From an uncultured Clostridia bacterium (lineage in GTDB: Bacteria > Bacillota > Clostridia > Tissierellales > Peptoniphilaceae), in assembly GCA_945916025.1 (NCBI GenBank), contig CAMEGD010000002.1, forward strand, positions 1-36,023: DNA of 36,023 nucleotides, given 5' to 3'. The notes below the pieces were generated by a model. That model saw only the letters and a program-made list of their open reading frames with translations, made no database searches and was not told the origin of the DNA. The translations under genes were made by a program, and so were the position numbers. The first letter of the stretch is position 1. The number at the start of each line of letters is the position of its first letter. Positions 13,615-35,037 of the stretch are shown here, piece after piece.

Positions 13615-13667
13615 GATTCTATTATCCTACAACATATAGTTTGGGAGGTAGACAGGAAAACTTATAC

Positions 13668-13713
13668 AAAAAACTTAGGACCTTATGAAAGTACATAAGC
13701 TTCTAAGTTTTTT
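13668..13713 (+). terminator. Terminator after degV
   Basis: AAAAACTTAG (from 13669) pairs with CTAAGTTTTTT (13703-13713). An inner CTTATG/CATAAG stem extends the hairpin and the T-run is at its end. The rest of the 287-base gap up to 13901 contains no clear gene. Confidence 0.75.
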
Positions 13714-13901
13714 ATTGTCTAAATAACAAGGCTTTTGGGCATCTGTCCAATGTGTAAGAATACTGAAAGTATGGAATTCTAATCATGGGAATATAAGATT
13801 AATAAAATAATAAAAGAAAAAAGCAAAAAATTACATGTATATATAAATGACTATTTGATATTATTCAATTATGAAAACGTTTTTAATTTAGAGGTGAGAA
13901 G

Positions 13902-15437
13902 GTGAATATTCTATATATAGATATTGAAGATAAGACAGTTAAAGAATTTATCTTGAAACTTGCAGATTCAAGAATAAATTTTATTAATTATGGTTCAAGT
14001 GATATGGAAATAAATGATTTTTCGGTAGTTATATATTCTAACTTTATGAGAAATGAGAGTAGATTAAAAAAATTAAGAGGTTTAAATCGAAACTCAAAAT
14101 TTATTTACATATTAGATCATTATAAAAATGATACTATTCAAAAAGCTATAAACGCACAGCTAGTAGATTATCTATATTTTAAAAATGAAAATTATGTAGA
14201 GAAAGTAGTAGAAATACTGAATACAAAAAATAACAACAAAATACTAGATGCTAAAGTTGAGAACAAAAGTTTAAATATGGCTAAATCAATGGTCACTTCT
14301 TTTTATATTTATAATTTAATATATGGTGACATGAAGAACCTTGATATGCTAATAGACTTAGTAGAAAAATACAACTTAGAAATAAATCCGAATCTATCCA
14401 TAGTATTGATGATTGACAATTTTTGGGAAGAAGTAAGGTTTTTAGACAACAAAAATAGATATGAAATAAAAAAAGAGTATCTTGATTTTGTTAATTATTT
14501 TATAGATAAAAATAATATCCAAGCCATAGCAAGCACTCTATTTGGGACAGATAAAATTACAATTCTATTAAACATAGATAAAGACAATCAGAAAGATTCC
14601 ATAAAGTATAGTACTAAATTAGCTATTAAGTTAAAAGAATATATTAATTTAAAAGCTAAGCATACTGTAACCATTGGTGTTGGTTCTATATTCCAAAATC
14701 CAAAATATTTATGGAAGTCATATGAAGAAGCTTTTAAATCTTTAGATTATTCTTTTTATCTTGGCTCAGACAAGGTAATTCATTTTGAAGAAACTAAAGA
14801 TCTAACAATTTATAACGATGCTAATAAAAATAAACTGCCACAGTCATCTGCCATGGGGATAATGATAACTAATGGACTTTATAAAGAAAGAAAGTATACA
14901 GATAGGGAAGCATCGATTATTGTTACTGGATTTTCAGCAGTTGCTATAACATTTATGATAGTAGTAGCAGATAATCTTGGATTTACTTCTATGTGGAATA
15001 CATTCTTTGCATCAGCTTTAGTAGTTACATTCTTGACAACAGCTATAACTGCAAGATTAAGGCCTTTGTCTAAAATGAATGATACTTATTATAACAATAT
15101 GCCAGCTAATATAGATGAAACGCGCCAAGGAAATGTAATTAAAAGTGCTATTGATGAAGATTTTAAAGTATGCTATGAAGTACCACCACTACACATCAAT
15201 ATATTAAATTATCTAAAAGATGCTTTTGAATTAGTTTTGGAATATCTTCCCAACTTAATGTCAATAGGCTTGGCTGGTTTGCTCCTAGCAGAATATACCC
15301 CTTTATTTGATTATTTGGGATATATTTTCTATCCTATAACTTTAGCTCTTAGAATTCCTGAACCATTACTTGCAGCTAAAGCTACAATATTGGGATTAGC
15401 TGAGATGTATTTACCGGTATTATTGCTGAAGTTATAG
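13902..15437 (+). pseudogene. Fused remnant: regulator without HTH joined to truncated YjiH protein
   Basis: The 511-codon frame is a join of two unrelated genes. Residues 1-310 resemble the receiver-like and central sensor domains of YesN/AraC-type regulators. They have a degenerate receiver (about 1-107) and a central domain ending VTIGVGSIFQNPKYLWKSYE, but the expected C-terminal AraC DNA-binding domain is missing. From about residue 312 (near base 14835) the sequence is the middle and C-terminal part of a YjiH-type nucleoside-recognition membrane protein, with YTDREASIIVTGFSAVAI, RPLSKMNDTYYN, LLLAEYTPLFDYL and LGLAEMYLP. The YjiH N-terminal helices are gone, and its end is lost where the frame meets a flavin reductase fragment. 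GAGGTG precedes the GTG start. Function is unlikely; a real fusion protein cannot be excluded. Confidence 0.72.
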
Positions 15438-22469: not shown

Positions 22470-22740
22470 TATTTAATATTTACTGGGATGAGGAGAGTAC
22501 TATTAAATTGATCCTTACAGAGACATTTCGGTTGGTGAGAGAAATGGGAGAGATTAATAGGAAAATGGCCTCTGAGTATTTGTACCGAGACATTTTTGTT
22601 TAGGCTACAACAGGAACTCCTGTTATAGAGTTAAGGGTATGTTTGTACCCTGTGAGGTCTTTTTAGTGATAAAAAGATAAATTAAGGTGGTAACACGTAG
22701 TTTTAGCTTTCGTCCTTTTTAGGGATGGAAGCTTTTTTTT
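22470..22740 (+). promoter_or_regulatory. T-box leader with methionine specifier
   Basis: The 411 bases between the csbD-like gene and metN hold a promoter and this leader. Stem I has the AG-bulge-type GGTTGGTGAGAG (from about 22530) and, on its 3' side, the specifier context GAAAATGGCC with ATG at 22565-22567, a methionine codon. The T-box proper is AAGGTGGTAACACG (22684-22697), slightly different from the common GGGTGGTACCGCG. Its TGGT would pair with a tRNA ending ACCA, suited to tRNA-Met. A terminator (22705-22715 with 22723-22733, then eight T) follows. Uncharged tRNA-Met should open expression of metNIQ. Confidence 0.85.
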
Positions 22741-24440: not shown

Positions 24441-24992
24441 ATGAAAAAGAAGTTGTTAGCATTATTATTAGGATTTAGTTTATTATTGGTTGCATGTAAC
24501 AATCAAAGTGACACAGATGCAAATGCAGAGGCAGAAAAAACTGTAAGTGAAAATGAAGTAGTACATGTAAAAATCGGTACATCACCAACACCGCATGGGG
24601 AGATTGTAGAAGCTTTAAAGGATAAGTTTTTGGAAGAAAATATTGAAGTTGAAGTTATTAATTTTGATGATTATGTACAACCAAACTTAGCCTTATCTGA
24701 TGGAGACCTAGACTTAAACTATTTCCAACATCTTCCATATTTAGAAAGTTTTTCTGCAGATCACAACTTAGACTTAGTAGGACTTGGACAAATCCATGTA
24801 GAACCTTTAGCCTTGTACTCAGAAAAATATGAATCAGTTGAAGACATTGAAGATGGAGCAGAGATTTTAATACCAAATGACCCTTCTAATGGGTCTCGTG
24901 TCATAATTATGACAACGGCAAATAGTAACGATAGAATCAGGCTTTCCAGCCCTCTACAAAAAAATAAAAATATGTATTGGTGTGCTTTTTAG
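24441..24992 (+). pseudogene. metQ: MetQ methionine-binding lipoprotein, truncated by an element
   Basis: The first 153 codons are normal MetQ: a lipoprotein signal with LLVAC (C19), VKIGTSPTPHGEIVEA, FDDYVQPNLAL, DLNYFQHLPYL and EDGAEILIPNDPSNGSR. MetQ proteins should continue from here as GSRALxLLxxxGLI for another 110-120 residues, including the rest of the binding cleft. Instead the frame runs through about 30 unrelated residues (VIIMTTANSNDRIRLSS...) to a stop at 24992. The switch happens at 24897-24899, exactly where a 16-base palindrome begins and the mobile-element genes follow. The protein should not bind methionine, so the MetNI transporter lacks its usual partner unless another copy exists. 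Confidence 0.85.
24899..24914. repeat. Perfect 16-base palindrome at the element/metQ junction
   Basis: TGTCATAATTATGACA is fully self-complementary and starts where metQ homology ends. It may be the core or arm of the recombination site, or an operator for the first element genes. Confidence 0.6.
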
Positions 24993-25363: not shown

Positions 25364-25397
25364 GACGATAGAAATTAAAAATCTATCGTCTTTTTTT
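25364..25397 (+). terminator. Terminator before repA
   Basis: GACGATAGA (25364-25372) and TCTATCGTC (25382-25390) form a perfect 9-base stem with a T-run directly after. It isolates the RepA gene from upstream transcription. Confidence 0.85.
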
Positions 25398-25419: not shown

Positions 25420-26169
25420 ATGAATTTCGATTATTTTTATCATCGTGAAAGCGAAAAATTTAGTTTCTATATTTTACCTAAGCTTTTAATCTACGATGAT
25501 TTATTTAAGGAATTATCTTCAGATGCAAAAGTACTTTATGCATGTTTGTTAGATCGTATGGATTTATCTAGTAAAAATGGATGGCGTGATAGGGATGGCA
25601 GAGTGTTTATTATATTTACGATAGAAGAGATTATGGAATCTCTAAACAAATCAAATAAAACAGCGGTGAAAATTATTAAAGAACTTGATGATATAGGGCT
25701 AATACAAAGAAAAAGACAGGGACTAGGAAAGCCGAATTTAATATATGTTATGGATTTTATGACACCATTTTTACCCGAGTGTAAAAGTTACACTTCAGAA
25801 ATGAAGAATCTACACTCCAGAAGTGTAAAAAGTACATTTCAAGAAGTGAAGAAAGTACAAGGAACTAATACTAATAATAACAAGACTGATATTACTAAGA
25901 CTGATTTGAACAATGGTAAAAAAGCCTTTGGCACTTTCAATAATGTTTATTTATCAGCTGAAGAATTAAAAAGGTTAAACGAAACTATAGGTTTACGATT
26001 AGAAAACTATATTGAACGCTTATCGACTTACCTAAAAAGTACAGGAGGTCATTACAATGACCATCACGCAACAATCTTATCTTGGTTTCATAAAGATCAA
26101 GGTAGTAAAAACAATGTAGGGAATAACATTCCAACCAATGATGATTACAGCAAAGGAGACTATTTATGA
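25420..26169 (+). CDS. repA: RepA-N type replication initiator
   Basis: The 249-residue protein opens with the RepA-N domain: FSFYILPKLLIYDDLFKELSSDAKVLYACLLDRMDLS, then GRVFIIFTIEEIMESLNKSNKTAVKIIKELDDIGLI, a winged-helix DNA-binding region (about 12-112). A C-terminal part after a Thr/Asn/Lys-rich linker resembles the DnaB/DnaD-like end of such proteins. In conjugative elements RepA-N proteins support replication of the excised circle. AAGGAG precedes the ATG. The stop overlaps the next gene (ATGA). Confidence 0.88.
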   Translation: MNFDYFYHRESEKFSFYILPKLLIYDDLFKELSSDAKVLYACLLDRMDLSSKNGWRDRDGRVFIIFTIEEIMESLNKSNKTAVKIIKELDDIGLIQRKRQGLGKPNLIYVMDFMTPFLPECKSYTSEMKNLHSRSVKSTFQEVKKVQGTNTNNNKTDITKTDLNNGKKAFGTFNNVYLSAEELKRLNETIGLRLENYIERLSTYLKSTGGHYNDHHATILSWFHKDQGSKNNVGNNIPTNDDYSKGDYL

Positions 26170-27008
26170 TTAAAAGAATTTTACTAGGTGAAATTGAATA
26201 TCCATTTAATGAGGAAAAGGAAGAGTATGTAGATGGACATGTTTACTGTAAAGAATGTGGGGAGCAACTCGATAATAATCAGATAGAACTTTTTGGAGAT
26301 AGATATGTTTTTAGAAAAAAGTGCTTATGTGAAAGAAAAAGAGAAGAAGAATATGAAAGACACCAAAGGCAAGTTCGTATAGGAATGTTAAAAGAATCCT
26401 GCTTTAAGTCTCCAATGCAAGGAACATATAAATTTGAGAATTTTAAGGGAGATAAAACAAATGCTTACACCGTTGCTCTAAACTATGCCAAAAACTTTAA
26501 AGAGATGAGGAATGACAATATCGGACTATGCTTCTTTGGGCCAGTAGGTAGTGGAAAATCTTTTTTAGCCTCGTGTATTGCAAATTACTTGATGGAAGAA
26601 GAGATGATGACGGTGAAGATGAGAAACTTTGCTGAGATTATTAATGAACTACAAACGGGTGGTTTCAGCCTAGATAAAAACAAATACATTGACTCCTTTA
26701 CGAATGTGCCACTTTTAATTCTAGATGACTTAGGTATTGAAAGAGATACAGCTTATGCAAAAGAGCAAGTTTATAACGTAATAAATAGTAGGTATCTAAA
26801 GCAAAAGCCAACAATCATTACAACGAATCTACCTTGGGAGCGGATAAGCGAAACAAAAGAAAGTCTAGAATATCAAAGGATTTATTCAAGAATTGTAGAA
26901 ATGTGTATCCCAGTTCAAGTAAATGCAGAAGATTATAGAAAAACAATAAACAAATCAAAGTTAGAACGATATAAAGAACAGCTTACGAAAAGAGGTGATG
27001 AAAGTTGA
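26166..27008 (+). CDS. DnaC/IstB-like helicase-loader ATPase
   Basis: The 280-residue AAA+ protein has an N-terminal zinc-type cluster (C28, C31, C53, C55). Walker A is GPVGSGKS (125-132), Walker B is LLILDDLG (183-190), and the sensor segment PTIITTNLPW and an arginine-finger region follow. These are features of DnaC/DnaI helicase loaders. It directly follows repA, overlapping it by four bases, so the two probably form the element's replication module. Confidence 0.9.
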   Translation: MIKRILLGEIEYPFNEEKEEYVDGHVYCKECGEQLDNNQIELFGDRYVFRKKCLCERKREEEYERHQRQVRIGMLKESCFKSPMQGTYKFENFKGDKTNAYTVALNYAKNFKEMRNDNIGLCFFGPVGSGKSFLASCIANYLMEEEMMTVKMRNFAEIINELQTGGFSLDKNKYIDSFTNVPLLILDDLGIERDTAYAKEQVYNVINSRYLKQKPTIITTNLPWERISETKESLEYQRIYSRIVEMCIPVQVNAEDYRKTINKSKLERYKEQLTKRGDES

Positions 27009-27490
27009 TTAATGAGGATATATCAAACAAAACAGTTAGTATGCAAGTTCGAGCAAGTGAAAAAATGATGGATCAGCTTCTAAAAACTCTTAAAAAAATG
27101 CAAGAAGAATCTAAAAAACATGGGGGTCTTGAAAAGTACCTTAAGCAAGAAGGTAATGAAGTAAAACTAAAAGATATGGTAAAAAGAAGTCAACTTGAAG
27201 AAATCCCTGTTAAAGAAGCTGAGCTTAAAGAGCTAAAGAAGGAATTGAATAAATACGGAGTTAAGTTTTCTGTTATGAGAGATAAAGAGAGTGGAAACTA
27301 TAACGTGTTCTTTCAAGCAAAGGATACTAAGGTTATGGATCTAGCTTTTAATAAGGCGTTACAAAAAGCAGAACAGAAGCATGACAAGAAAGAATCTGTT
27401 CACAAACAAATTAATGAATTCAAAGAAAAAATTAAAGAGACTATCACCAATGACCAAGTTAAAAATAAACACAAGGAGCAAAGCCTATGA
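27005..27490 (+). CDS. PcfB family (DUF3801) protein
   Basis: The 161-residue protein fits PcfB/DUF3801, a conserved neighbour of the VirD4-type coupling protein in Gram-positive conjugative elements. Visible are an N-terminal helix-rich region and the core VKEAELKELKKELNKYGVKFSVMRDKESGNYNVFFQAKDTKVMDLAFNKAL, followed by a Lys-rich tail. In pCF10, PcfB helps present the relaxosome to the coupling protein PcfC. The start is a TTG overlapping the previous stop, with GAGGTGA six bases upstream. Confidence 0.78.
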   Translation: MINEDISNKTVSMQVRASEKMMDQLLKTLKKMQEESKKHGGLEKYLKQEGNEVKLKDMVKRSQLEEIPVKEAELKELKKELNKYGVKFSVMRDKESGNYNVFFQAKDTKVMDLAFNKALQKAEQKHDKKESVHKQINEFKEKIKETITNDQVKNKHKEQSL

Positions 27491-28215
27491 GTAGTATCAT
27501 GCAATATAATAATAAAGAATTTGGAGAACTCACTGTTATTGAAAAAGACGGTGAGTTTTTCTTTATAGGAAAAGAAGTAGCAGAGAAGCTAGGATATTCA
27601 AATACAAGAGATGCTTTAAGTCGTCATGTTGATGAATCAGATAAGGGCGTCGGGAAACACGACACCCTTGGAGGCAAACAATCTTTTATCGTTATAAATG
27701 AGTCTGGACTTTACTCCCTAATTCTATCTTCCAAACTTCCTTCAGCTTTAAGATTTAAACATTGGGTGACAAAAGAGGTTCTTCCAAGTATTAGAAAAAA
27801 TGGAGGATATATCTCAAATCAAGAAAACTTGTCAAACGAGGAAATTCTAGCAAAAGCAATGTTGGTTGCAAACAATGTAATAAAGGAAAAAGCGGACAGG
27901 ATAAAAGAGCTTGAGCCTAAAGCCAATTACTACGATCAACTAGTAGATAAGAATCTACTTACTAACTTTAGGGATACTGCTAAACAACTAAATATACCAC
28001 AAAAGGCATTTATTGATTTTCTACTAGAGAATGATTTTCTATATCGAGATAAACATCAGAAGCTACTACCTTATTCTAGAAAAAATAACGGCTACTTTGA
28101 AGTCAAGGAATGGGTTAGTTTAGATGGTCATTTGGTTGGTATTCAAACAATGGTGACTCCTAAAGGAAGAAACTACTTCCTAGTCTTGTTAGGAGGTGGT
28201 TTAAGTCGTGATTGA
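27487..28215 (+). CDS. Bro-N / KilA-C phage-antirepressor-like protein
   Basis: The 242-residue protein combines a Bro-N domain (about 8-112: FGELTVIEKDGEFFFIGKEVAEKLGYSNTRDALSRHV and KQSFIVINESGLYSLILSSKLPSALRFKHWVTKEVLPSIRKNG) with a KilA-C-type domain (about 145-240). Such proteins are antirepressors in phages and are a regular member of the Tn1549 left module between PcfB and VirD4, where they probably regulate the element. Its end overlaps the VirD4 start by eight bases. Confidence 0.9.
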   Translation: MSSIMQYNNKEFGELTVIEKDGEFFFIGKEVAEKLGYSNTRDALSRHVDESDKGVGKHDTLGGKQSFIVINESGLYSLILSSKLPSALRFKHWVTKEVLPSIRKNGGYISNQENLSNEEILAKAMLVANNVIKEKADRIKELEPKANYYDQLVDKNLLTNFRDTAKQLNIPQKAFIDFLLENDFLYRDKHQKLLPYSRKNNGYFEVKEWVSLDGHLVGIQTMVTPKGRNYFLVLLGGGLSRD

Positions 28216-30409
28216 TAAAATATTTAAGGATATTAAAGGACTAATCAAAATAGATAGTCCAAAAGACTTTCTCATTAATTGGATGCCTTATATCCTTATC
28301 TTCTACATTGGGAATATTTTTTCCAAACATGTTGCTTCCTATGTTGGAGGGGATGTTATAGATAGGATATTAATAGCTATCCTCGAAGTTAATACTATGA
28401 GTCTTCTTCCAATTTTTAAGACTAATGACTTAATAGTAGGGTTAGTCTTGTCAGGCCTTGTAAAGTTAATTGTTTATTCTAAAGGGAAAAACGCTAAGAA
28501 GTTTAGGCAAGGTGAAGAATATGGTTCAGCAAGATGGGGAACTAAAAAAGATATTGAACCTTACATTGATGAAAAGTTTGAGAACAATGTTCTTCTGACA
28601 CAAACTGAAAGACTTACCATGGACTCAAGACCGAGCAATCCCAAATATGCAAGAAATAAAAATGTTATGGTCATTGGTGGTTCAGGCTCAGGTAAAACGA
28701 GATTCTATGTAAAACCTAACCTCATGCAAATGCACTCATCCTATATTGTCTATGTAGGAACTCAAACTATTCAACCAGGAATTGAAGATATGCTCAGAGA
28801 AAAAAACGATGGCGGGAAGCCTGTAAGATGGGCTAGCTTACAGAGATCAGGATCTAACAGCAGAAGATTTGAAGGTCCTACGATGTTCTATCCAATATTT
28901 TTTAATAAAGATGACAAATCTTTTCATTCTACTGGAGAATCTTTACCGTTGAATCTAGATAGAAATACTGTGATAGCTCCAGAAGGAACTATAGCGGTGT
29001 TTCCACTTGGTCGTAATAATGATGAAAGAAATTGGCAGTTATCACAGAAAACGTTCAATGAAAGGTTATCTAGAGGGTTCGTCAAGTTTGGAAAATGGAA
29101 TGAGGCTAAAAACTCAAGAAGCATCAGTTATTTGTCTACTGGCGTTATAAATAGAATAGCTAGTGGTGAGTTAAAAATCTTGGGCTATGAACAGGATGGC
29201 GCAGCAATTATTGAAAATGTAAGCACTATTAGACCTGTATCAACATGGAATAAGCCAACTCATAGTGCTAGTGAATATGGTTCCAGTCTCTTAAATCATA
29301 TCATGCCAGATAGAAAATTTCCTTTTCCTAAGTCATTATACGCTGTTGCTGACACATTGAAATTTTTTGTTTCCAATAAAAAAGATGCATTAATCCTTGA
29401 TTTTTTTGCGGGCTCTGGGACAACGGCTCATGCAGTTAATTTATTGAACAAAGAAGATGGTGGCAAGAGACAATCAATTATGGTAACAAATAATGAAGTT
29501 TCAGTTGATGAATCTAAATCACTAAAGAAAAAAGGATTTAATCCAGGTGATATAGAGTGGGAGGATTTAGGCATAGCTCATCATATAACTTGGCCAAGAA
29601 TTAAATGTTCAATTCTTGGCATTGATACTGTCGGCTCACCCTTAACTGATACCTATAAAATAACAAGAAAAAAACAAGTTCTGGTTCCACGTAAAATTAA
29701 GAAGATTGATTATGTAACCCCAGAGACACTAGATACTGTCACTAAGCGAAAAAACTTTGTGTCAAATCTTAATTCTAAATACTCAGACTTGGCTCAAAGT
29801 CTTGTGAAAAAAGATGAACCTTTTATTGTTTCTGACGAACATTCAACAACTATTATATTTGATATCGAATATTTAGAAGAATGGTTGAATGAGATAGAGG
29901 GAAAAGACCATATTCAAAACTTTTTAATCATTACAAATAACAATAAAGAATTTAATAATATTAAGGATAAAGTTGCTGATTTAATGGGCGAGAATCAAAG
30001 TATTATAGAAGAAGAATTACCAATGTCAAAAGGTTTCGATACTAATGCGATTTTCTTTAAGTTGGGGTTTCTTGACAAAAATAGCGTTGCAATCGGAAAA
30101 CAACTTAGTGAGTTATTACCATTACTATGGATGAAAGCTGGTTCAGTAGGGGAATGTCCTTCTATAGGAGAGAATGAAAATGTAGATGCTTTAATTTATC
30201 CTAAAAATAAATTCGGAATTCTGATTAAAGAAAATAGATTTGCGGATTTCAAAAATGAGTTAGATGAGTATCCTGAAATCAATACAGTATTTATAGTTAC
30301 TGATTCAGACGAAGGCTATGTTGAAATGTCTTCATTATTGGAGGTTAAACAAACATTTCAACTTTACAAAGACTATTTAGATAATTTTAGGATAAATATT
30401 AGGAGGTAA
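28208..30409 (+). pseudogene. In-frame fusion of VirD4 N-terminus with type III-like Mod C-terminus
   Basis: The 733-codon frame begins as a VirD4/TraG coupling protein. Two membrane segments (about 22-40 and 74-90), EYGSARWGTKKDI and Walker A GGSGSGKT (157-164) with RFYVKPNLMQMHSSYIV are seen. VirD4 proteins continue TDPKGT with Walker B; here that is lost after about residue 181 (near base 28750). The rest is the C-terminal half of a type III/beta-class adenine methyltransferase: motif X-like FPFPKSLYAVADTL (371-384), motif I LDFFAGSGTTAHAV (397-410), and a Mod-type C-terminal region. The catalytic DPPY motif, which lies before motif I in this class, is absent. Both activities should be lost. 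GTG start after AGGAGGTGG. Confidence 0.8.
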
Positions 30410-30412
30410 ATA

Positions 30413-33211
30413 ATGAAATTAGAACTTTTTCCATTTCAGGATACAGCATTGAATAATTTGCGAAAGAAAACAGCGGAGGCAATGTATTTTTTTGAACGTA
30501 CAAACTCATCACAAATAATATCATTTACAGCACCTACGGGTGCTGGTAAAACAATAATCATTACAGCTTTAATTGAAAAGATATTTTTTGGAGATGCTGA
30601 TTATCCTGAACAACCAGAAGCAATCTTTGTTTGGCTTTCGGATTCTCCTGAGTTAAATGAACAATCTAAACAAAAAATTGAAACAAAGTCTGACAAAATA
30701 AAACTCAATCAATGTATAACGATTGAAAATGAAAGCTTCGATCAAGAATTCTTAAGTGATGGACATATATACTTTTTGAATACTCAAAAGTTATCATCTT
30801 CTAGTAACTTAACAAAATATGGAAATAATAGGGAATATACTATATGGGATACTATTCGAAATACAGCGGAGTCTAAGTCCGATAGGCTTTATTTTATAAT
30901 AGATGAAGCCCATAGAGGAGCAAAAAGCAGAGATAGAGCTGAGGCGACCTCTATTATGCAGAAATTTATTAAAGGTAGCGTAGTAGATAGTATAAAATCT
31001 ATGCCTTTAGTTATAGGAATGTCAGCAACTAGTGAAAGGTTTAATACTTTAATTGCAGGAACAAGCTCATCGATTCATAACGTAGTAGTGCCAATCGAGG
31101 ATGTTAGAGCGTCCGGCTTATTAAAGGAAAAAATAATTATTACCTATCCAGATGAATCTGATGCTAATAAGGACATGGCGGTTCTACAGGCTGCAACAGA
31201 TGAGTGGAAAAGGAAATGGGATCATTGGTATCAGTATTGCACAGAACAACACTATTCACATGTAAATCCTGTATTTGTGATTCAAGTCAAGAACAGAAAG
31301 GGAGATAGAATATCAGAGACATCTCTTGATGAGAGTTTACTGCAAATTGAAAAAAGACTAGATTATAAGTTTAAATTTGGCGAAGTTGTTCATTCTTTTG
31401 GAGATATAAATGGAAGTTTGCAAGTAAATGGTTTAAAAGTGCCATACATTGAACCCTCAAGAATAAACGACAATCGCAATATAAGAATAGTGTTTTTTAA
31501 AGAAAGCCTATCCACAGGATGGGATTGTCCTAGAGCAGAAACAATGATGTCATTTAGAAGTGCAAATGATTCCACTTATATAGCTCAGTTATTAGGTAGA
31601 ATGGTCAGAACTCCTAAGCAAATGCGTATTCAAGTAGATGAAACATTAAATGATGTTTATTTATTTTTGCCACATTTTAATCAGAATAATGTTGATAAAG
31701 TAGTCGAAGCATTTCAATCTTCTGAAGGTGATTCTGTTCCAGCAGAAGTTGAAGGTCAAAAGATTGGAGTACTTAGCTATGAGACTTGGACAGTTAAACC
31801 GGTAAATAAAGCTAATAGAAAACCTAAAAACATATCAGGTCAATTGCAATTCGAACCTGAATCTTCTAACGAAAAGAAAGATCCAACAAATCAACCAGAT
31901 GACATTGTTTTATTGCCACTTTGTGAAAAAGATGAAGTAAACAATCTTCCTGATTTAAGACCAACTCCTGAAGAGATTCATGAGCAAAGGAATAATTCAG
32001 ATGAGGGCCAGGAAGCAGAACCAGATAATGATGTTTTTGATGTCGACACTGACGTAATTGATAGGGAAGAAATTACAAAATTTATTAATGAAAGTGGTTT
32101 GCTAACCTATCAAGTTAGAAAAGTTCAAATTACGAACTATTTAGCATCATTATTTAAGTTATCTAGGCTACTCTTACAATCTAATTTAGATCTTAGCGAA
32201 AACGAAAGAATAGTAGAAGAAATTGTTGAAATAATATGTGCGTATATACAGAAACTCAAGAAAAATAATGATTATAGTAAATTAAAAAAAGAACTACTCG
32301 AATTTAGATTAAATAAAAAAGTTTTGGATGTATTTGGAGAAGAAATAGAAGATGAAGGCTTAGGTGGACTATTTTCAAGCTCTAACATTGATGTTGAGCG
32401 TCAATTTAGACAAGCTGAAGCTAAATTAAATAACGAAGGAATTGGTCAAAGATATGGTCAGAAATATTTTGAAATTAATGATCCTGACGAGTACAAAATA
32501 CATGTGATCTTATTTGCATTTGACAAGAACAATATTGATTATTTACATGAGTATGCAAAAGAAAAGTTTCACGAATTGAATGATAAGTTCAGAAGATATA
32601 TTCCTACTCTTCCAGAAGTTTTTCAAAATCAATATGAAAAAATTTCTTCTAACTCAGATAAAGTAAGCCAACATAATTTTAGATTACCTGCAACAATAAG
32701 TGTAGAATCTAAACCAGATTATAAATCATATGAAGATCATCTATTAGTTAATCAGAGCACGGGTGTAGCTCATGTAAATTTAAATGATTGGGAGGAACAA
32801 GTTTTAGAAGAAGAGAGAAAAAGGGATGATTTTGTGTGTTGGTTGAGGAATCCGTCGAGAAAACCTTGGGCCTTGCAGATTCCATATGAAATAGATAATG
32901 AGACAAAACCAATGTACCCTGATCTTATTATTATTAGAAAAGATCCTGTTTTAAAGTATGTTGTTGACATTATAGAACCACATGGACAACATCTCGCAGA
33001 TAATGTTGGAAAAGCAAAAGGATTAGCAGAATATGCCAGACAAAATCCTGGTTTGGGAAGAATTGAGCTTGTACGCATTGTCGATAGTCCTAGTAAAAGA
33101 ACAATATTTCTTCGCTTAGACATGGCTAAAACTAAAATAAGAGATAAGGTGTCTAAGATTAATACTTATGAAGAATTAGAAAACCTATTTAGAAATTATG
33201 GAAACAAATAA
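30413..33211 (+). CDS. Type III restriction Res-type helicase-nuclease
   Basis: The 932-residue protein is a superfamily 2 helicase of the type III Res kind. Walker A is APTGAGKT (40-47), DEAH is at 164-167, GMSAT at 202-206, a SLSTGWDCPRAE segment comes before motif VI, and motif VI is QLLGRMVRTP (392-401). The C-terminal domain has the nuclease-like pattern PD (836-837), then D852 and E855 in VDIIEPHG. The canonical lysine of PD-(D/E)xK is not present. AGGAGG lies before the ATG, three bases after the Mod fragment. The gene looks intact, so the helicase may be expressed without a working methyltransferase. Confidence 0.88.
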   Translation: MKLELFPFQDTALNNLRKKTAEAMYFFERTNSSQIISFTAPTGAGKTIIITALIEKIFFGDADYPEQPEAIFVWLSDSPELNEQSKQKIETKSDKIKLNQCITIENESFDQEFLSDGHIYFLNTQKLSSSSNLTKYGNNREYTIWDTIRNTAESKSDRLYFIIDEAHRGAKSRDRAEATSIMQKFIKGSVVDSIKSMPLVIGMSATSERFNTLIAGTSSSIHNVVVPIEDVRASGLLKEKIIITYPDESDANKDMAVLQAATDEWKRKWDHWYQYCTEQHYSHVNPVFVIQVKNRKGDRISETSLDESLLQIEKRLDYKFKFGEVVHSFGDINGSLQVNGLKVPYIEPSRINDNRNIRIVFFKESLSTGWDCPRAETMMSFRSANDSTYIAQLLGRMVRTPKQMRIQVDETLNDVYLFLPHFNQNNVDKVVEAFQSSEGDSVPAEVEGQKIGVLSYETWTVKPVNKANRKPKNISGQLQFEPESSNEKKDPTNQPDDIVLLPLCEKDEVNNLPDLRPTPEEIHEQRNNSDEGQEAEPDNDVFDVDTDVIDREEITKFINESGLLTYQVRKVQITNYLASLFKLSRLLLQSNLDLSENERIVEEIVEIICAYIQKLKKNNDYSKLKKELLEFRLNKKVLDVFGEEIEDEGLGGLFSSSNIDVERQFRQAEAKLNNEGIGQRYGQKYFEINDPDEYKIHVILFAFDKNNIDYLHEYAKEKFHELNDKFRRYIPTLPEVFQNQYEKISSNSDKVSQHNFRLPATISVESKPDYKSYEDHLLVNQSTGVAHVNLNDWEEQVLEEERKRDDFVCWLRNPSRKPWALQIPYEIDNETKPMYPDLIIIRKDPVLKYVVDIIEPHGQHLADNVGKAKGLAEYARQNPGLGRIELVRIVDSPSKRTIFLRLDMAKTKIRDKVSKINTYEELENLFRNYGNK

Positions 33212-33242
33212 GGAAGTAGTTTTCATCTCTCCACTTCCTTAT
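33208..33242. repeat. Inverted repeat between the convergent Res and relaxase genes
   Basis: ATAAGGAAGT (33208-33217) is the exact complement of ACTTCCTTAT (33233-33242). The Res stop is in the left arm and the relaxase stop is in the 15-base loop. It could terminate both genes, although T-runs are lacking. Confidence 0.5.
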
Positions 33243-34554
33243 CCATATAATTCTCATAGTTTTTCTTATATTGAACCAGCTCAGAAAATAAATCATTTGA
33301 CGTAGAATACTCTTGCATAAGGGTATTCTTTTTTTCTTGGAATTGATCAAGTTCTTTAAGAATATCCTTAGATTTTGGAACAGAGTCATAGGTTTCAATT
33401 ATAGCTTTAGAGGCAATAGTATAGAGTTTTAGTTCAGCAGAATATTCCTTGGCGAAATTCTCGTCATTAGGGTTAGCTTTATGATATTTATAATGTTCTC
33501 GGTACTCTCTGATTGTTTCCACTTGCTCCATCGTTTCAGATAGCTTTTCCATATTAGATTCGATATCTTTAATTTCGTCTAGAAGACCTTGTCTTTCGTC
33601 TGCTATCTTTTGAATATGTTCTTCTAGTTCTTGCTTAGAATTAATCCCAAGTTGACGTATAGCGATAACAGAATCAGCCATAGTTTTTAGGTTATGCTTA
33701 TTAGCCCAGAACTCGTATCCTTTACTGGATTTAATCTTTTCATTGTTACTAATATTGATTACTTTGCCTACTCTTTGCTTGATAGCGGGGCGATGACTTT
33801 GAACAGATTCTTGGAGCCTTTCTTTTAATCTTTCTTCCGTATAATCATCACCTATTGTTTTAGCACGAGTAAATCTTTGCTTATCTTTATGTCTGAAAGC
33901 TATGTGCTTACCATGTTTAATTTCATAACCTAACTCAGACATTCTCTTTAGAAAATCTTCCCAATTTTGAGCTTGTTTAAGCATACGATCGATATCAAAT
34001 TGTAGCTTGGATTTCCATGAAGTTCCTTGCTTAGCCTGCTGAAATTCATACCAAGACTTTCCTTTAGTCTTATACCTTCTTTTATAGCTTTCGTAATAAG
34101 TATCAATAACGGATAGCTTGTTTTCTCTACATAATTCATCACTTCGGGTTCTAATTTGATGATAAGTCTTGTAGTTAGCTCGATAGCATTTAACTGTGAC
34201 CATATTGACATGATTAAAGATGATATGGTTATGAATATGGCCACGATCCAAATGGGTAGCTATGACATACTCATACTCGTTTTTCAGATGTTTTTCACAG
34301 AGTTCTTGACCAATTCGGTGAGCAGTTTCTGCATCAGTTTCTCCTGGAAAGAAGGATTGAATTAAGTGCTGGGCTAAAACTGTTCCCTGAACATTGTTAG
34401 CTTCTCGAGTTTTTAGAAAAGAAGTGTGGGCAGTAATTGGATTGCACATAAAACCTGAGACCAGAATTTGGTCGTTGGTTTTTTCATCCTTTGAGATATA
34501 GTCAATAGCCAAATTAAGTGTTGATTTTATTGGATGAATTTTTGTAATTGCCAT
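33223..34554 (-). CDS. MobP-type relaxase
   Basis: The 443-residue protein nicks and carries the transferred strand. The metal-binding HIHNHIIFN motif is at 106-114 within THLDRGHIHNHIIFNHVN. Near the N-terminus LNLAIDYISKDEKT offers Tyr19 as the likely nucleophile. After about residue 280 the protein is coiled-coil-like (ELEEHIQKIADERQGLLDEIKDIESNMEKLSETMEQVE). This is the relaxase of Tn1549-like elements, and the length looks complete. It lies two bases after mobC with GGAGGA at the mobC end, so they form one operon. Confidence 0.92.
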   Translation of the reverse strand: MAITKIHPIKSTLNLAIDYISKDEKTNDQILVSGFMCNPITAHTSFLKTREANNVQGTVLAQHLIQSFFPGETDAETAHRIGQELCEKHLKNEYEYVIATHLDRGHIHNHIIFNHVNMVTVKCYRANYKTYHQIRTRSDELCRENKLSVIDTYYESYKRRYKTKGKSWYEFQQAKQGTSWKSKLQFDIDRMLKQAQNWEDFLKRMSELGYEIKHGKHIAFRHKDKQRFTRAKTIGDDYTEERLKERLQESVQSHRPAIKQRVGKVINISNNEKIKSSKGYEFWANKHNLKTMADSVIAIRQLGINSKQELEEHIQKIADERQGLLDEIKDIESNMEKLSETMEQVETIREYREHYKYHKANPNDENFAKEYSAELKLYTIASKAIIETYDSVPKSKDILKELDQFQEKKNTLMQEYSTSNDLFSELVQYKKNYENYMDKEVER

Positions 34555-34556
34555 GC

Positions 34557-34910
34557 CTATTTTCCTCCATCCGAAGCTCTATTTAGAAGTAATGAATGTA
34601 TTAGCCAAATTTCTTTTGATATGGCATCAATATCTTCTCTAATGCTTTTTATATCATCACGATAGATAACGCTTGTTTGATTAGCGTGTTTTGCAATTTG
34701 ATTTATATTGTTTGTGGCATTAGATAGTAGCCATTGAATATTTCTGAAAGGTTCAAGATCAACAGTATAAATTTCTTTTTCCATAACGCATTTTCTAATA
34801 AAATGAGCCATCGTTTTACTATTTGTCATCTTCATTTTCTCCCTGAACAAGGCCAGTTCTTCATCGTTCAGGTAGATTTTTAATTGATTTTTTCGACTTC
34901 TATTTTCCAT
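34557..34910 (-). CDS. mobC: MobC relaxosome accessory protein
   Basis: The 117-residue protein begins RSRKNQLKIYLNDEELALFREKMKMTNSKTMAHFIRKCVM, a ribbon-helix-helix-like DNA-binding start. It continues with the MobC core (NIQWLLSNATNNINQIAKHANQT and a final helix with IWLIHSLLLN). MobC proteins bind and open oriT for the relaxase. The ATG at 34910 has AGGAGG five bases upstream. A longer frame to a GTG at 35033 would translate the oriT repeats and a terminator and is rejected. Confidence 0.88.
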   Translation of the reverse strand: MENRSRKNQLKIYLNDEELALFREKMKMTNSKTMAHFIRKCVMEKEIYTVDLEPFRNIQWLLSNATNNINQIAKHANQTSVIYRDDIKSIREDIDAISKEIWLIHSLLLNRASDGGK

Positions 34911-34942
34911 TTCTTCCTCCTGTTTTTTGTATTTTCGGGGTA

Positions 34943-35037
34943 TTAGGGTGCTCCCTAACAAGTTAAAATTGAATAAAAAAAGAAGCAGTCCGAGTTGGTC
35001 TGCTTCATCAATTTTTCGCAAGTGGGTACTCACTTGC
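34943..35037. other. Putative origin of transfer (oriT)
   Basis: Between mobC and the AlbA_2 gene lie nested short inverted repeats. TTAGGG-TGCT-CCCTAA is at 34943-34958, GAAGCAG/CTGCTTC at 34982-34988 and 35000-35006, and GCAAGTG-GGTACT-CACTTGC at 35018-35037. Their place upstream of mobC-relaxase is where oriT sits in this element family. The nick site cannot be assigned by eye. Confidence 0.55.
34975..35006 (-). terminator. Terminator of the AlbA_2-type gene
   Basis: Read on the minus strand, GAAGCAG and CTGCTTC form a 7-base stem followed by seven T. It would stop transcription from the upstream minus-strand gene before mobC. Confidence 0.65.

Follow-up and report, generated by a model that had tools for sequence, protein, structure and literature searches.

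The window, by which we mean the whole stretch of DNA analyzed (36,023 nucleotides), is the entire contig C2 of a 1.32-Mb draft genome that comprises 130 contigs and is approximately 65% complete. Genes of the MetN and MetI type precede a mobile element that interrupts metQ (24441..24992, forward strand, profile match), which is cut at about profile position 116. Of the 236 profile positions, the window retains 1-116, and the remaining half of the gene (positions 106-236, matched at 13661-14053) lies at the end of contig C28 (L096, about 13658-14056). A T-box leader (Rfam RF00230) was observed upstream of the split metQ at 22476-22720. The left terminus of the element, TCTCGTGTCATAATTATGACAA (24894..24915, forward strand), has a 22-base imperfect inverted counterpart on C28, the right terminus TCTCGTGTCAAGCTAATGACAA, with which it agrees at 18 of 22 positions. 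Contig C2 ends inside the element, before the right terminus, while C28 ends 48 nt into the other end; the right arm, the expected site of an integrase, is absent from the assembly.

The left part of the element carries a module of genes identified by Pfam as a RepA_N protein, an IstB-like/DnaA-like ATPase, a DUF3801 (PcfB) protein, and a BRO/ANT protein (25420..28215, forward strand). The order and orientation of these genes are identical in integrative conjugative elements (ICEs) of the same bacterial family (G002, G010, G021, G100, and G106). A 33-base hairpin that leads into a T run, GACGATAG...CTATCGTC TTTTTTT, precedes repA at 25366-25397; the same hairpin, 97% identical, occurs at a different place in the ICE of a relative (L053, 10848-10880) and is probably a shared terminator. 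At the other end of the window, a MobA/VirD2-like relaxase gene (33223..34554, reverse strand; Pfam Relaxase, 3.4e-34) is convergent with res at a distance of about 12 bp and is followed by a gene for a MobC/NikA-like accessory protein (34557..35033, reverse strand), which was assigned by profile match and occupies the same position in relatives. The relaxase shares up to 66% identity with its counterparts within the family. The MobC-MobA operon likewise lies on the opposite strand in the family ICEs, and the relative orientation of virD4 and relaxase is that seen in the window. Of the features expected of an ICE, the element possesses a relaxase and defined termini in a split target gene (metQ, on C2 and C28) and lacks a complete coupling protein with a secretion ATPase, as its VirD4 is truncated.

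The gene under study, res (30413..33211, forward strand), is an ORF with an ATG start that encodes a type III-like restriction subunit of 932 amino acids, with a helicase core and a C-terminal nuclease-like domain. Similarity to ResIII (Pfam, E = 3.6e-17) and a REase_III call by PADLOC support this assignment. The SF2 helicase motifs are intact, as had been proposed in a sequence-only reading of the locus: GAGKT at residues 43-47 (30539..30553, forward strand; invariant in alignment A2), DEAH at residues 164-167 (30902..30913, forward strand; residue-level motif check), SAT at residue 204, and QLLGRMVR at residue 392. The same reading had noted that the C-terminal site departs from PD-(D/E)xK, and this also holds. 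The PD of the nuclease site (P836 and D837; 32918..32923, forward strand) is invariant in alignments A1, A2, and A3 and aligns with the PD of canonical Res proteins, while the (D/E)xK position is occupied by E855-P856-H857 (32975..32983, forward strand), which is invariant in 17 sequences and aligns with the ETK of canonical Res. The nuclease motif of the enzyme is therefore PD...EPH.

The ORF directly upstream of res (28208-30409) is, in the assembled sequence, an in-frame VirD4-Mod fusion of 733 codons, with res beginning three bases downstream. Its first ~180 residues (28208..28747, forward strand) are the N terminus of a VirD4-type coupling protein of the CD1115 family (NCBIfam NF045973, residues 127-181) with the Walker A motif GGSGSGKT. 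This part is 69% identical at the protein level to an Aerococcus VirD4 and about 73% identical at the DNA level to elements carried by dozens of genomes within the same bacterial family, with the similarity ending at about position 28744. A DNA comparison against uninterrupted virD4 genes from relatives and against the mod genes from nine relatives places the virD4/mod junction at 28740..28752 (forward strand). Microhomology at the junction is estimated from these related genes at a few bases at most, around TATTGTC. The remainder of the ORF (28748..30409, forward strand) corresponds to Mod from about residue 256 of ~700; it retains FFAGSGTT (motif I) and the C terminus and has lost DPPY (motif IV) and the N terminus, so that the adjacent DPPY and FxGxG motifs of a type III Mod are reduced to FFAGSGTT alone. 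In the EcoP15I Mod, DPPY is found at residues 123-126, and residues 263-384 make up the recognition domain (PMC4490356). By analogy, the lost part would take in the N-terminal domain and reach halfway through the methylase domain, and the break would lie near the start of the recognition domain. In addition, an insert of ~80-100 residues precedes the C-terminal domain (residues 484-600 of the ORF) and is missing from most close relatives.

The adjacent methyltransferase had earlier been described as deprived of its catalytic half. The loss is real and DPPY is indeed absent, but simple truncation does not describe the protein, as a VirD4 N terminus that had gone unnoticed is fused to it in frame. 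A plain truncation of Mod or a new start codon was rejected on the same grounds.

Relatives of Res were found at 19 loci in other genomes, most of them (at least 15) 52-53% identical over the full length, and none were found in viral contigs. Every full-length close relative carries PD...EPH, and D837, D852, E855, P856, H857, and K867 are invariant in the alignments. More distant homologues on plasmids of Deinococcus, Halomonas, Citrobacter, Xanthomonas, Micrococcus, Rhodococcus, and others carry (E/D)PH. When Res is aligned with canonical type III Res proteins (one alignment; L024-L026 and L086), its E855 and H857 coincide with the E and the K of ETK, respectively. Judged from these alignments, Res is a member of a type III Res subfamily with His in place of Lys and not a damaged enzyme. 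This Lys-to-His branch spans Bacillota, Actinomycetota, Pseudomonadota, and Deinococcota. A member at L017 (4518-7419) is broken by a frameshift or stop into ORFs of 857 and 108 amino acids and adjoins a full Mod.

The methyltransferase partners of these enzymes are generally complete. A full-length Mod of 656-733 amino acids with DPPY and FAGSG lies directly before Res at all 17 close-relative loci for which upstream sequence is available, which answers the question raised previously of whether homologues sit beside a full Mod. The Mod family of the relatives matches solved type III-like Mods (7dsu, 6k0w, and EcoP15I 4zcf), and the Mod-Res pair presumably works as an ordinary type III restriction system, provided that the His site cleaves. 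A Butyrivibrio locus (L004, 1819-5997) contains two full-length Mods in tandem before a single EPH-type Res. The earlier suggestion that EPH is peculiar to the Res of the window is contradicted by these data, as the motif is family-wide and occurs beside full Mods. For the same reason, degradation of the site to EPH after loss of Mod was rejected as an explanation: relatives with a full Mod carry it too.

A predicted model of the isolated C-terminal domain is alpha-beta (pLDDT 81, pTM 0.77), with a helix-strand order compatible with a PD-(D/E)xK core and the motif at the end of a strand. Fold searches that used the C-terminal half or the isolated domain returned Cas4, Holliday junction resolvase, TnsA, and SSO0001, all weakly (E >= 0.01); many of the matches are PD-(D/E)xK relatives, with unrelated folds mixed in. 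A PD-(D/E)xK fold is thus likely for the modeled domain. A sequence search of the PDB with Res, both as a single sequence and as a profile, gave no match. In the EcoP15I crystal structure, the nuclease domain is disordered (PMC4490356), so it offers no direct template for the Res domain.

The sequence-only reading had allowed for a conserved lysine elsewhere in the fold. Such a residue exists, as K867 (33011..33013, forward strand) is invariant and is placed by the model on the next helix, at residues 83-96 of the domain; the ExK column itself, however, holds His throughout the subfamily. From its position and conservation, K867 could stand in for the catalytic lysine. This possibility is weakened by the alignment with canonical type III Res proteins, as they have a lysine in the K867 column as well. 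We tentatively propose, at somewhat short of even odds, that a type III branch found over several phyla uses PD...(E/D)xH, with His alone or together with the helix lysine K867 replacing the catalytic Lys, and is either an active nuclease or a cleavage-dead defense that binds DNA and slides along it. A motif scan for PD-(D/E)xK would score the enzymes of this branch as dead, yet full Mods mostly adjoin them.

Comparison with related ICEs indicates how the arrangement in the window could have arisen. In the window, virD4 and the relaxase gene are only 4.5 kb apart, whereas in related ICEs the distance is ~32 kb (G100), 43 kb (G079), 48 kb (G002 and G021), or 60 kb (G106), and the interval is filled with secretion genes and defense cargo. 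In G100, the cargo slot before the relaxase contains restriction- and methylase-type genes, the last of which ends 19 bases from the relaxase gene. On loci L054 (12684-18915) and L058 (2-1479), the contents of this slot differ between elements and include restriction/methylase-type genes, an AAA ATPase, and others. The relaxase-side slot of the family ICEs is therefore variable and often holds defense genes. In G063, a genome of the same family in a single contig, an intact Mod (703 amino acids) and an EPH Res are convergent with a relaxase remnant, and a second Mod-Res pair is found elsewhere; in G021, another type III pair lies between virD4 and the relaxase gene.

As judged from the relatives, an intact ancestor would have carried the rep-ATPase-pcfB-BRO-virD4 genes, then tens of kilobases of secretion genes, then a cargo slot with a type III Mod-Res pair, and finally the relaxase and MobC genes on the other strand. 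A single deletion from about codon 180 of virD4 to about codon 256 of mod would remove the secretion genes together with the catalytic half of Mod and leave a VirD4-Mod chimera, fused in frame, ahead of an intact res. We accordingly read the locus, with a probability of roughly 0.58, as a decayed ICE in metQ in which one deletion took the 5' half of mod along with the secretion genes, so that Res has no functional Mod and is probably inactive. This reading is based on the full Mod that precedes Res in relatives, on the start of the ORF being a CD1115-family VirD4 whose similarity ends at ~28744, on the 32-60 kb between virD4 and relaxase genes in relatives, and on the cargo slot beside the relaxase with the pairs of G063 and G021. 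It also draws on the absence of the lost segments from the assembly and on the split metQ, whose inverted termini mark the ends of the element.

Not all of the evidence points toward decay. No long repeat that would explain a deletion is present at the junction, and the Mod remnant and Res show no further decay, with no stops in about 553 and 932 codons, respectively, so that the event must be either very recent or not biological. The VirD4-Mod join could instead be an artefact, arising from a chimeric amplification or library molecule or from misassembly of an intact ICE in which virD4 and mod are complete and the type III system may work. The fragmented and incomplete state of the draft, the ending of C2 inside the element and of C28 just within its other end, the undamaged reading frames on both sides of the join, and the intact pairs held by relatives are all consistent with this explanation, to which we assign an appreciable probability, well below one-half. 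Against an artefact, searches of the draft assembly (~65% complete) recovered neither the 3' half of virD4 nor the 5' half of mod, and a search with intact ICE DNA recovered no secretion genes. As absent genes may simply be missing from a draft of this completeness, their absence is weak evidence. The reading frame is also kept all the way between the native start codon of virD4 and the native stop codon of mod, which would occur by chance in one case in three, and the possible homology at the join is too short for an ordinary assembler join. Assemblers seldom join sequences over so few shared bases. Given this short overlap and the failure to find the missing parts anywhere else in the draft, a real deletion is placed somewhat ahead of a chimeric join, and we infer that the join is biological. 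Within the genus of the window, no intact ancestor that carries this exact Mod-Res pair in this ICE was found.

If the deletion is real, the consequences for Res can be considered from other type III systems, in which a Mod dimer recognizes the DNA and Res supplies the ATPase and nuclease (PMC4490356), and in which Mod stabilizes Res and shields it from proteolysis (PMC3874151). As both site recognition and Res stability depend on Mod, the Res of the window, by analogy, should be inactive and not toxic in the absence of a competent Mod. It had been argued from the sequence that a restriction enzyme without its modification partner should be toxic or inactive; inactivity is what we expect, while the toxicity paradox, given the dependence on Mod, finds no support. 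Indeed, pairs with an intact Res and a broken Mod occur elsewhere in the subfamily, which also speaks against such a paradox: Mod is N-terminally truncated (221 amino acids, no DPPY) on plasmids of Citrobacter (L083) and Klebsiella (L097) and frameshifted on plasmids of Halomonas (L082) and Xanthomonas (L084), and the Res in all of these is of the EPH/DPH type. The truncated-Mod form is apparently common to several plasmids, and Res may persist after loss of Mod.

A Mod supplied in trans from elsewhere in the genome could keep Res active, as the related EcoP1 and EcoP15 alleles are documented to complement each other (PMC3874151) and a third of the genome is missing from the draft. We consider this very unlikely, as a search of the draft with a full Mod of this family matched the window locus alone, and the other two N6_N4_Mtase matches in the genome are below the family cutoff and unmatched by this Mod. 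The second Mod that had been suggested as worth looking for was not found in the draft (~65% complete). The neighboring Mod itself cannot be catalytic.

The chimera itself could also be functional, with a membrane-anchored VirD4-Mod acting together with Res, for example, in blocking or cutting incoming conjugative DNA at the membrane. The in-frame fusion with native start and stop and res three bases downstream, the lack of decay over 733 and 932 codons, and the retention of Mod motif I and C terminus would fit such a role. However, DPPY and the Mod N terminus are lost, and VirD4 is cut just after its Walker A motif, so that its ATPase is also broken. Furthermore, when the fused DNA was searched against 100 family genomes, no second copy of the fusion turned up, and the exact junction sequence had no match in viral contigs. 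A functional chimera is thus very improbable.

Overall, what is seen locally is a defective copy of a system of a known kind and most likely a dead remnant. It illustrates how a restriction system can be disarmed when the mobile element that carries it suffers a deletion in which Mod is lost and Res stays intact; this loss should be harmless, given that a type III Res relies on Mod. Locally, this is ordinary decay, and only the branch with PD...(E/D)PH is mildly novel; this conserved site is the part worth following up.

Both aspects can be set beside known systems. A precise deletion of secretion genes has been described for dICE_Ssal39-01_fda of Streptococcus salivarius (PMC7563491). That element and the one in the window both have recognizable termini, have kept the relaxase, and lack secretion genes. 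In the window, however, the deletion endpoint lies inside the cargo and produces a virD4-mod chimera, and the integrase end was not recovered. For Helicobacter pylori modH, an inactive res occurs with a mod that is kept (PMC3230613). One half of a type III system is broken in both cases, but the direction is reversed in the window, where Mod is broken and Res is intact.

For the nuclease site, the closest parallels are variants of PD-(D/E)xK in which the lysine has been substituted or has migrated. Those named in the examined parts of PMC1189080 and PMC1913061 have Asn, Gln, an acidic residue, Thr, or Arg at the lysine position. Like Res, the variants in these parts keep the acidic residues on predicted core strands, have the lysine column substituted, and carry a conserved lysine on the following helix. 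A histidine at this position of type III Res was not described in the same parts of these two papers, nor was a description found in the papers examined in a small search.

Compared with systems of the EcoP15I/EcoP1I type, the locus and its relatives share the mod-res gene order with a spacing of about three bases. The Mods of the relatives are, like those of EcoP15I and EcoP1I, of the beta class, with DPPY followed by FxGxG, whereas the window copy is without DPPY and the N terminus. Likewise, the Res proteins of both groups combine an SF2 helicase core with a C-terminal nuclease-like domain, but the (D/E)xK site of the EcoP15I/EcoP1I type is replaced by (E/D)PH throughout the branch to which the Res of the window belongs.
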